A DNA stretch of 64,000 nt from Rhodobacterales bacterium HKCCE3408 (GTDB taxonomy: Bacteria > Pseudomonadota > Alphaproteobacteria > Rhodobacterales > Rhodobacteraceae): contig WVSN01000005.1 of assembly GCA_015689705.1 (NCBI GenBank), positions 1-64,000 of the forward strand. Reading direction: 5' to 3'. Both the position numbers and the translations under genes were made by a program. The notes beneath the pieces were generated by a model. That model was not told the DNA's origin, made no database searches, and saw only the letters and a program-made list of their open reading frames with translations. This document shows, piece by piece, positions 10,521 to 13,166 of the stretch (position 1 is its first letter; each line of letters starts with the position of its first letter).

Positions 10521-11009
10521 ATGCCCACTCCCGCCGAACTCGAAACCCACTTCTGGACCGCGCTGCGCAAGGACATGACCGTCCTGCTCGCCTGTGACGG
10601 CGCGCCGCCGCGCCCGATGACCGCGCAGGTCTCCACCGACCGCGACGCCGGCCCGCTCTGGTTCTTCACCGCCACCGATACCGACATCGGAGAGGCCGTC
10701 GCCTCCGGGCCGAAACCGGCCGTGCTGACCTTCGCCTCGCAGGGCCACGACGTCTTCGCCTCGGCCTCCGGCACGCTGACGAAGGACATGGACCGGGCGA
10801 AGATCGACGAATTGTGGAATCCCTTCGTCGCCGCCTGGTACGAGCAGGGCAAGGACGACCCCAAGCTCTGCCTCGTGCGGATGGACGCGACCGACGCGCA
10901 TATCTGGGAAACCGGGAATTCGCTCGTCGCCGGTCTGAAGATCCTCCTCGGCTCCGATCCGAAGCAGGATTTCGAGGACCAGACCGCGCAGGTCCGCCTC
11001 GACCACTGA
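10521..11009 (+). CDS. Pyridoxamine 5'-phosphate oxidase-fold protein (general stress protein 26 type)
   Basis: The 162-residue protein matches the split-barrel flavin-binding family called general stress protein 26. It has an N-terminal helix (ELETHFWTALRKDM), LWFFTATDTDIGEAV, and TKDMDRAKIDELWNPFVAAWY, where the W-x-P-x-x-x-x-W-Y block is characteristic. Relatives bind FMN, FAD or F420-like cofactors; the substrate is unknown. The ATG at 10521 follows a perfect AGGAGG that is itself sequestered in a hairpin, suggesting translational control. A strong terminator follows the stop. Confidence 0.85.
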   Translation: MPTPAELETHFWTALRKDMTVLLACDGAPPRPMTAQVSTDRDAGPLWFFTATDTDIGEAVASGPKPAVLTFASQGHDVFASASGTLTKDMDRAKIDELWNPFVAAWYEQGKDDPKLCLVRMDATDAHIWETGNSLVAGLKILLGSDPKQDFEDQTAQVRLDH

Positions 11010-11029
11010 CCGCGACGCGCCGGAGCGGA

Positions 11030-11067
11030 ACGGCCCCGCCGCACCTTCCCGGGCGCGGCGGGGCCGT
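11030..11067. terminator. Bidirectional terminator between convergent genes
   Basis: A perfect 13-bp stem (ACGGCCCCGCCGC with GCGGCGGGGCCGT) with a 12-base loop sits exactly between the stop of the PPOX-fold gene and the convergent entericidin stop, so it can serve both strands. T-runs are short. Confidence 0.7.
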
Positions 11068-11079
11068 CTGTCGTCAGGC

Positions 11080-11223
11080 TCAGTTCTGCGCCTCTTCGGC
11101 CTCCTCGTCGATCGCCTGACCGGCGGCCTCGACGTCTTCGCCGAAGCCTTCGACGGTCTCGCAGGCGGCCAGCAGGCCGAGAAGGGTCAGAAGCGTGGCG
11201 GTGCGGGCAAGGGTGCGGGTCAT
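11080..11223 (-). CDS. Entericidin A/B family lipoprotein
   Basis: This 47-residue open frame reads MTRTLARTATLLTLLGLLAAC, a lipoprotein signal with lipobox LLAAC (Cys21). A short acidic tail follows (ETVEGFGEDVEAAGQAIDEE and a few more residues), with the TVxGFGxDVxAAGxAI pattern of the entericidin family. Entericidins are small cell-envelope lipoproteins named for the E. coli antidote/toxin pair. In alphaproteobacteria a single copy is common and its role is unclear. AGGAG lies 6 bases before the ATG. The gene ends at a shared terminator and its upstream region is the long gene-free stretch. Confidence 0.88.
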   Translation of the reverse strand: MTRTLARTATLLTLLGLLAACETVEGFGEDVEAAGQAIDEEAEEAQN

Positions 11224-11505
11224 GTCGTCTCCTGTGTCTGTCTCCGGGCCTCAACACGCCCGGCGCGCGACAGTTCCGCCGCCCGAGCGGCTGCGCGAAG
11301 CGTAGAGGCGTCCACTGCCTCTCTCCGGCCTTCGCAGGCGCGGCAAGACCTGTCCCGGCAACGCTTTTCCGGGGCCGTCCCCCGGCTGCACAATACTTAC
11401 CCACACGTTTACCAACCCTTTGATCCCCAACAAATATCCGCGCCCGCCCGAATCCGTCTTGCGCGACTCGGTCCCGTATTGTGACAGTTCAGTTACCGGC
11501 ACGGG

Positions 11506-11937
11506 GTCGCAAGACAGCGGGTCGGGGCGCGGCGGTCTCCCTGGGGTCCGCGTGGCGCAGGACCGGGACGCGAGCTCCGGGCCAGTGTCACGAACGGTGT
11601 CAGGGGCGGTCGGAGCGGATCGGGACGGGACATGTGCCCGGACCGGAACGAACCGGCAGCAGCAGATCACGTGCGCCGTGACCGGCCGCAAGGTCGGAGA
11701 CGGCAGCCGGCGGGTGCAAGCCCGGCGGGGTCCCGGACAGGCCGTGAGGCAGGCCGGGGCGGCGGGTCGGCGAGAGCCGGGTCGCGAAAGTCCGGGGGTC
11801 AAAGCCCGGGCGAGCGACGGGCCGCAAGGTCGGATCGCGAGCGTTCGGGGGTCAAAGCCCGGGCGGGCGGCAGGCCGAAAGGCCGGGTCGCGAGCGTCCG
11901 GGGGTCAAAGCCCGGGCGGGCGGCAGACCGAAAGGTC
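11506..11937 (+). ncRNA. Candidate structured RNA with eight GNRA-loop hairpins
   Basis: On the plus strand eight short stems are closed by GNRA tetraloops: GCAA at 11509-11512, 11688-11691, 11716-11719 and 11824-11827; GTGA at 11744-11747; GAGA at 11772-11775; GAAA at 11877-11880 and 11930-11933. Across the repeated copies the last stem changes as GGCC/GGTC, GGCC/GGCC and GACC/GGTC, always keeping pairing (with one G-U). A neighbouring stem changes from GG/CC to GA/TC. On the minus strand the loops would not be stable tetraloops, so plus-strand transcription is favoured. No promoter or T-run terminator is obvious, and no known RNA family was recognised. Confidence 0.35.
11779..11937. repeat. 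Three tandem copies of a 53-bp unit
   Basis: Units lie at 11779-11831, 11832-11884 and 11885-11937, each exactly 53 bases. Copies two and three differ at 4 positions and copies one and three at 7. The invariant core is GGGGTCAAAGCCCGGGCG. The length is not a multiple of three, arguing against a protein repeat. There are no unique spacers, so this is not CRISPR. A diverged unit with the same dodecamer GGCCGCAAGGTC begins upstream at 11684. Confidence 0.9.
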
Positions 11938-12153
11938 GGGTCGCATGGGAACGGTCGAAGACCGGGGCGAGACGTGGCTGCGTCGGACCCGGGACGGAAG
12001 CCGGACCCGACTGGGCCATCGAGCCCCCTGGGGGGAGATCGGTTCAGGAAGGCGTCAGGATCGTGCTCCCATCGGGCACAGCGACGGACCGCGTCTGAAG
12101 CACCTGGCGCCTTCTACCGATCCCCCAGCCCCGGGCCTCTCCGCGCATGCGAA

Positions 12154-12181
12154 GGGGCCCGAAGTGGCTGCTTCGGACCCC
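12154..12181. other. Imperfect 11-bp hairpin
   Basis: GGGGCCCGAAG (12154-12164) pairs with CTTCGGACCCC (12171-12181), broken by one C-A mismatch, around a six-base loop. No T-run follows. It could be the 3' boundary of an upstream transcript from the repeat region. Confidence 0.4.
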
Positions 12182-12349
12182 CGTAAGTCAGGATCGAACC
12201 GCGTCGTTAACGCACCTGTAAGGCGCATGTAGCGCGGCGAGTCTGGCCGTACAATCCAAATCTCGGGGCGTCCGCACGATTATCCGCCAGATGCGGTGTG
12301 CGGGCCCCACATCCTGCGGTTTCGGCCATGCGAATTTTCGTGCCTGTGC

Positions 12350-12397
12350 AGGCATACCGAAAGGCATACGGCCAGGCATACCGCCAGGCATACGCCC
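12350..12397. repeat. Four tandem copies of a 12-bp unit
   Basis: AGGCATAC is followed by CGAA, GGCC, CGCC and GCCC in four successive 12-base units. They lie just beyond the 3' end of the alpha/beta hydrolase gene (minus strand), starting 11 bases after its stop codon. Confidence 0.85.
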
Positions 12398-12407
12398 CGA
12401 TCCGGCC

Positions 12408-13166
12408 CTATGGGGCGAGGAACGCCGCCGCGGCGGCCTCGAAATCCCGCGGTTTCTCGGCATGAAGCCAGTGCCCCGCCCCAGGCAGTTTCGCGAACCG
12501 GGCGTTCGGGAAATATCGTTTGATCTCATCGCGATAGTCGCGCTTCACGTAATCCGACGCGCCGCCCGACAGGAACAGGACGGGCCCCTCGAACGTGCCG
12601 TCCAGATCCTCCGGCCAGCCCGTGATCCGGTCCATCTCGGCCTCCAGCACATCCAGGTTCAGCCGCCACTTTTTCTCTTTGATATCCATCGATTGCAGCA
12701 GAAACGCCCGGACGCCAGCCTCCGGAATCGCGGCCTCCAGCGCCCGGTCCGCATCGCCCCGCGTCCCGATGGACGACAGGTCCAGCTGGCGCATCGCGTG
12801 GATCAGGTGGCTCTGCGAATGCCTGTATGCGACCGGCGCAATATCCGCGACAATCAACCGGTTGACCCGCTCCGGCGCCGTCAGCGCCAGCACCATGCCG
12901 GCCTTCCCGCCCATCGAATGCCCGATCACGTCGGCCACTCCGCCATGGGCCTCGATCACCTCGGCGAGATCCCCCGCCATGTCGCGATAGCTGTTTGACT
13001 CAGCGCGAAAACTTTCCCCGTGATTGCGCATGTCCACGGTGAGAACGCGCCGCTCGGCCGACAGGCGCTTCGCGATCACGCCCCAGTTCCGGGCCGAGCC
13101 GAACAGGCCGTGCACGATCAGCACCGGAACGCCCGACGCCTCGCCGAAAGTGTGCGTCGCCAGCAT
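12408..13166 (-). CDS. Alpha/beta-fold hydrolase (YbfF-type esterase)
   Basis: The 252-residue protein has the alpha/beta hydrolase plan: oxyanion segment HGLFGSARNW near residue 19, the nucleophile elbow GHSMGGK near 82-88, and a C-terminal His in GAGHWLHAEKP. Sequence and length are closest to YbfF-like carboxylesterases acting on short acyl esters, cytoplasmic. The start is 4 bases after the pirin stop, so the two form an operon. The physiological substrate is unknown. Confidence 0.88.
   Translation of the reverse strand: MLATHTFGEASGVPVLIVHGLFGSARNWGVIAKRLSAERRVLTVDMRNHGESFRAESNSYRDMAGDLAEVIEAHGGVADVIGHSMGGKAGMVLALTAPERVNRLIVADIAPVAYRHSQSHLIHAMRQLDLSSIGTRGDADRALEAAIPEAGVRAFLLQSMDIKEKKWRLNLDVLEAEMDRITGWPEDLDGTFEGPVLFLSGGASDYVKRDYRDEIKRYFPNARFAKLPGAGHWLHAEKPRDFEAAAAAFLAP

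Follow-up and report, generated by a model that had tools for sequence, protein, structure and literature searches.

A candidate two-RNA module of Alphaproteobacteria: a long hairpin-rich RNA and a convergent small RNA predicted to pair with its 3' end

The par (Fst) type I toxin-antitoxin locus of pAD1 consists of two convergent small transcription units whose complementarity comes from direct repeats. In ColE1 RNA I/RNA II and other loop-loop antisense pairs a long structured RNA meets a short antisense RNA, and complementary loops start the pairing. Few large noncoding RNAs are known from bacteria, and most of them have no established function. Within the Alphaproteobacteria, the gene for CcnA lies in the origin region, where DnaA boxes are present. 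This noncoding RNA belongs to Caulobacter and is described as such in PMC8959179. The locus considered here lies in the window, a 64,000-nt stretch of DNA from a member of the Rhodobacterales, and is probably a two-RNA module, predicted from comparative sequence analysis, in which a long noncoding RNA (L) is accompanied by a convergent small RNA (S) that would pair with the 3' end of L (Table 1).

As in par, L and S are convergent and owe their complementarity to direct repeats. L nevertheless differs from the par transcripts in being long, structured and chromosomal, in carrying the repeat within its 3' domain and in having no conserved open frame through it for a toxic peptide (this refers to longer frames, very short ones having been covered less than exhaustively); no membership is claimed. 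The likeness to the ColE1 pair lies in a long structured L facing a short S. The complementary parts of L and S co-vary and may meet as loops, the S loop hairpin being only weakly better than flank-swapped controls (17 of 200). Unlike its ColE1 counterpart, S is encoded beside its target site and not on the opposite strand of it, and the L/S locus is not at a replication origin, as judged from GC skew and gidB positions. L shares with sRNA sponges a conserved site complementary to an sRNA, but L and S are dedicated, co-varying neighbours, and L has a predicted promoter of its own and a second conserved domain. Protein sponges of the CsrB/RsmY type present many GGA motifs in loops, whereas the hairpin loops enriched in L are UUCG and GNRA. 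With OLE, GOLLD, ROOL and HEARO, L has in common a length of hundreds of nucleotides, a noncoding nature, many stable hairpins and a body whose function is unassigned or partly known; it differs from them in being chromosomal in Alphaproteobacteria, in having an antisense partner and in lacking an Rfam match. CcnA and L are set side by side by description only, and L, unlike CcnA, is not at the origin.

Against Rfam, nothing in the window reached a gathering score and positions 11000-12500 matched no family at E values up to 1, RNase P, tmRNA, 6S, SRP, OLE, GOLLD, ROOL and HEARO included, which fits the proposal of an undescribed RNA made in an earlier note on this DNA. When 11 homologous loci were scanned, the only family returned was RF01815 (rpsB sRNA), the matches to which adjoin the L/S locus in family f65 (L226, 933-1055, and L227, 920-1053, both on the minus strand; one above gathering score). 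The gene lepA, the usual neighbour of L, is not mentioned in the main text of the sRNA surveys of Ruegeria and Paracoccus. It is likewise absent from the main text of the structured-RNA surveys PMC2864571 and PMC8632094; the latter scanned a genome yielding Rhodobacterales motifs, and its supplement may list the locus unnamed.

The earlier note had drawn attention to eight GNRA-closed stems in positions 11506-11937. The array is real and far above chance: on the plus strand, seven GNRA loops cap stems of 4 bp or more, and dinucleotide shuffles lead one to expect 0.40 (none of 1000 reaches seven). The minus strand has none, and no 432-nt tile elsewhere in the window has more than three. The GTGA loop counted among the eight (~11741) and the GCAA at ~11509 sit on 3-bp stems. 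The stem variants GGCC/GGTC, GGCC/GGCC and GACC/GGTC do occur among the three 53-bp copies with pairing kept; the second stem had been given inexactly as CCGGG/TCCGG versus TCGGA/TTCGG, the actual sequences being GTCCGGGGGTCAAAGCCCGGGC and GTTCGGGGGTCAAAGCCCGGGC, a C-to-U wobble change. Relative to shuffles, the folding of 11500-12190 has a z of -5.5 on the plus strand and -1.1 on the minus strand. In the predicted architecture the array is one variable part, in the middle of the larger L locus: the interval first proposed holds the hairpins but misses the key conserved parts, namely the 5' domain, the 3' domain and the convergent small-RNA gene.

Table 1. Features of the L/S locus, in positions of the window.
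Feature	Position	Strand	Basis or remark
DnaA-box-like site TTACCCACA, degenerate copy of TTATCCACA	11397-11405	+	alignment of homologues
Second conserved upstream site, consensus TTATCCCCAAGAAATTT, here TTGATCCCCAACAAATA	11420-11436	+	alignment
Predicted L promoter: -35 TTGCGC (11459-11464), 17-nt spacer, -10-like TGACAG (11482-11487)	11459-11487	+	
Predicted L RNA, ~620 nt	11495-12115	+	start predicted from promoter, end from P1 and T-rich tail
L 5' domain: CCGC/GCGG stem around tetraloop hairpin, then conserved GCGGGACGCAAAGG block	11495-11530	+	covariation
Hairpins with GNRA caps in the variable interior	11682-11697, 11711-11724, 11767-11780	+	hairpin scan
Tandem array of three 53-bp copies, each with two hairpins, by which the variable interior is expanded	11776-11944	+	
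L 3' domain, three-way junction	12043-12114	+	covariance models R1/R2, covariation
P1 of 3' domain	12049-12059 with 12103-12113	+	
P2 of 3' domain	12063-12066 with 12076-12079	+	
P3 of 3' domain, presenting ACCGCGUC; GCACCUG follows	12088-12095; 12100-12106	+	
Predicted S RNA, ~70 nt	12219-12150	-	promoter, complementarity, terminator hairpin
S pairing parts CAGGUGC; GACGCGGU	12218-12212; 12205-12198	-	
S terminator-like hairpin	12154-12182	-	U tract weak in window, clear in most relatives
Predicted S promoter: -35 TTGTAC (12254-12249), 17-nt spacer, -10 TACATG (12231-12226)	12226-12254	-	
Conserved dyad just upstream of S -35, consensus CCACAAGATNTTG	12255-12268		degenerate in window

When 60 relatives were searched at the DNA level, two genomes showed short matches, which covered the ends of the region but not its middle. 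Ten homologues were obtained through hydrolase-bearing loci and motif scans, and these have the promoter region, the 5' block and the 3' block in common. The 3' block corresponds to a junction in which P1 is formed by AAGGCGUCAGG with CCUGGCGCCUU, P2 changes freely in sequence and P3 carries a nearly invariant CCGCGUC. In an alignment of 54 distinct sequences, the fitting of which to a covariance model somewhat favours the structure, 96.6% of cells are paired (at most 47% in the slid control) and 88 cells show double changes, compared with 19.7 after shuffling, a test that, like the other shuffle tests here, ignores the relatedness of the sequences. The same helices are found in the first, sequence-only alignment of the ten homologues, and the covariation was also computed on Rhodobacteraceae alone. 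For the 5' domain, double changes affect six of nine pairs among 17 sequences, which none of 500 shuffles reaches. Averaged over 39 homologues, the folding z is -3.26 for the L strand, as against -0.77 for its opposite. The comparison, and above all the 3'-domain covariation, strongly supports the earlier proposal of a selected, undescribed structured RNA on the plus strand, with L as the predicted gene. Its promoter contains a CTTGCsCGACTC block that is conserved across homologues, and a generic sigma-70 scan did not report a promoter at this site. From start to P1 end, L spans ~300-620 nt in Rhodobacteraceae; P1 with its T-rich tail probably serves as terminator and as protection of the 3' end.

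Between the two domains the sequence of L changes rapidly from one homologue to the next, and this interior is made up of GNRA- or UUCG-capped hairpins. The 39 L RNAs hold 78 GNRA and 80 UUCG stable hairpins (16.8 and 1.9 in shuffles), on the L strand only. The loops thus act as interchangeable caps, and conserved docking of the GNRA loops into receptors is not supported, given this swapping with UUCG. As a guess, the body of L might be a protein-binding scaffold. Tandem arrays of hairpin modules are also seen in distant L RNAs, as a 26-bp triple repeat in L223 and, in L225, a long array of UUCG hairpins; the growth of such arrays is thus recurrent. The 53-bp repeats, together with an uninterrupted 270-aa frame in the window, could be taken to indicate a protein-coding repeat region (ORF 11420-12232) or a simple G+C-rich tandem repeat. 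This is hardly conceivable, and is already contradicted by the comparative data: the frame has no Pfam match and is not conserved (26 of the 39 homologues lack an open frame through L, and those that are open differ in phase), and the 3' domain covaries.

The predicted S gene lies ~100 bp downstream of L, on the opposite strand and convergent with it, and would generally encode an RNA of ~70-80 nt. The order is promoter, segment complementary to L and then terminator hairpin. The 17-nt spacing between the -35 and a -10 starting with TA is present in 41 of 43 loci, a figure that the choice of the best site by the search somewhat favours; in other families the -35 reads TTGATC or TTGACA. In the window the S stretch folds with z = -2.2. 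The motif ACCGCGTC-N-GCACCTG has a second copy in Rhodobacteraceae, 60-210 bp downstream of the first, and elsewhere in the genomes gives scattered single matches only. A tandem duplication of one RNA module on the plus strand was considered for this second copy and dropped, since in distant families the other strand carries a promoter and a terminator, which identify the copy as the predicted 5' part of S. StsR of Rhodobacter was considered as a possible counterpart of S. No S was recognised near L in families f67, f102, f59 and f114. The last two keep the L junction with a different loop, and the first two keep the L loop, with no S nearby or by pattern search; L may therefore act without S in these families, or S may have gone unrecognised. 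Pattern matches elsewhere in the f67 and f102 genomes (L261 and L269) were rejected as S because they look like protein-coding DNA. One f64 genome (G578) has two L 3' domains (C8:3301-3374 and C13:94555-94625) and one recognised S.

The complementarity of S to the 3' domain of L has a core of 7 + 8 bp and extends up to ~25 bp. The letter before CCGCGUC in L and its counterpart in the complement of S are A/A in 29 pairs, T/T in five (f8, f65 and f124), C/C in one (f64) and mismatched in eight, so that 35 of 43 match; 26 would be expected, and none of 10000 shuffles does as well. The T/T and C/C cases come from a handful of lineages. The eight pairs that mismatch at this varying position are from Rhodobacteraceae and count against the pairing. 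Further paired changes are the replacement of GCAC by GCAT in both RNAs of L161 and L162, and in f113 an S copy CCCCGCATCC that stands opposite CCCCGCGTCC of L as a G-U pair. The predicted L-S duplex has an energy of -41.1 kcal/mol for cognate partners and -35.3 kcal/mol across families, and the values for L RNAs from outside Rhodobacteraceae are -44.7 and -34.5 kcal/mol, respectively. At the level of sequence, the comparison establishes the structure of L, both promoter patterns, the convergent synteny and the co-variation of L with S. Co-varying direct repeats could in principle also be sites for a DNA-binding protein or result from gene conversion.

In the two-RNA module the 5' part of S would be antisense to part of the L 3' domain. 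Contact would begin loop to loop, with GACGCGGU of S meeting ACCGCGUC of L; pairing would then extend over CAGGUGC/GCACCUG and CUGACG/CGUCAG to give as many as ~25 bp of duplex, which would open P1 and P3. The opened L may then be exposed to RNase III or 3' exonucleases, or allow readthrough, and S would be tied up. We infer that both RNAs are transcribed and that the duplex forms in cells, with an effect in either direction, S silencing L or L titrating S. If this is true, the neighbouring gene for a co-evolving partner RNA provides a built-in handle on L. It is possible, though rather unlikely, that S instead acts in trans on mRNA targets, as ordinary sRNAs do, and that L is a sponge or decoy, which titrates S through its 3' domain and has a hairpin body for stability. 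The invariant sequence of L is indeed mainly the S-complementary core and P1, with an interior that changes freely while keeping stable caps. A simple sponge, however, would not need the conserved, covarying 5' domain with its GCGGGACGCAAAGG block, and the pairing sequence of S shifts with that of L between families, which a dedicated pair explains better than constraint by many mRNAs.

The conserved boxes upstream of the predicted L promoter look like DnaA boxes. The perfect E. coli DnaA box is TTATCCACA (PMC6699656). Of 38 homologous loci, 15 contain an exact copy, which invariably has the orientation of L and stands at -74 to -108; exact TTATCCCCA is found upstream of L in 21 of the 38. In the window itself the upstream sites are degenerate. 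In 143 kb of surrounding DNA there is a single further copy, of TTATCCACA, and TTATCCCCA occurs nowhere else in these loci; across the family TTATCCACA has a density of 1.79 per kb upstream of L compared with 0.007 per kb elsewhere. DnaA-box-like sites at a fixed upstream place are also what a DnaA-regulated gene would have. A replication origin, which the TTATCCACA boxes had suggested, is ruled out by GC skew and the distance to gidB (0.9-1.6 Mb in four genomes); in G004 the locus is ~0.66 Mb from the skew-inferred origin. The strong boxes, the near identity of the motif repeats 60-280 bp apart and the dyad adjoining the S -35 might also point to an element that works as DNA, an origin-like or DnaA-binding region in which the ACCGCGTC-GCACCTG repeats are bound by protein and the structure is incidental. 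We regard this as very improbable, as the folding is strand-specific and accompanied by compensatory changes, and the locus lies away from the origin. Boxes of the same type as those upstream of L, TTATCCACAAGATATTG (in one case TTATCCCCAAGATATTG), precede an smc-like gene in L212, L214, L216, L217 and other Rhodobacteraceae, and near 2440-2480 of L218 divergent TTATCCACA boxes precede a frame for a small peptide with repeats and cysteine.

The R1 covariance model of the 3' block matched 60 of 397 sampled genomes of Rhodobacteraceae (~15%), at one place per genome (for G235, R1 gives this place a second time, on the opposite strand). The broader model R2 matched 44 of 288 genomes of this family and, in a sample of the class, 24 of 385 genomes, which belong to the family of the window and to about ten other alphaproteobacterial families. 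Among 399 genomes sampled across the phylum it gave nine matches, all within the window's own family. Nearly all carriers have a single L. Its usual place is between lepA, which lies upstream on the same strand in ~20 of 30 loci, and a gene for an alpha/beta hydrolase, which in many loci lies downstream on the opposite strand; both were identified by Pfam. In eight negative genomes the region downstream of lepA contained no credible L match with filters off, and no TTATCC box. Three of these, G001 (a sister species in the same genus), G014 and G019, lack the L/S unit but still have the hydrolase gene near lepA. With its neighbours intact where it is missing, the unit is accessory, lost or gained as a whole, and its absence from most genomes of the family, sister species included, indicates that it is not essential there.

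Such a patchy distribution, with clean absence beside the same genes in these three genomes, and the convergent layout with repeats could suggest a selfish, RNA-only cassette of toxin-antitoxin type arranged like pAD1 par, in which L or a peptide within it is harmful. This is improbable given the lack of a conserved reading frame through L and the usual single chromosomal copy at a conserved place, which is not mobile; no plasmid match to the L/S locus was found. A phage origin was also rejected, as the sole match to a viral contig (L195) falls in a gene that reads like ribose-phosphate pyrophosphokinase. More tentatively than the two-RNA module itself, the locus may represent a new bipartite RNA class of Alphaproteobacteria, in which a scaffold RNA and a dedicated, co-evolving antisense sRNA under DnaA-box (cell-cycle-type) control would form one accessory cassette. 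Kangsaoukella pontilimi (locus L042) is a cultured carrier. The carriers of L include many Rhodobacteraceae, a common marine group, and the presence or absence of L/S between sister species offers natural knock-outs. Between the S promoter and the hydrolase gene, an array of 12-bp CAGGCATAC units occupies positions 12349-12396; similar stretches at six other places in the genome (L007, L010, L011, L012, L013 and L014) mark it as a dispersed repeat.
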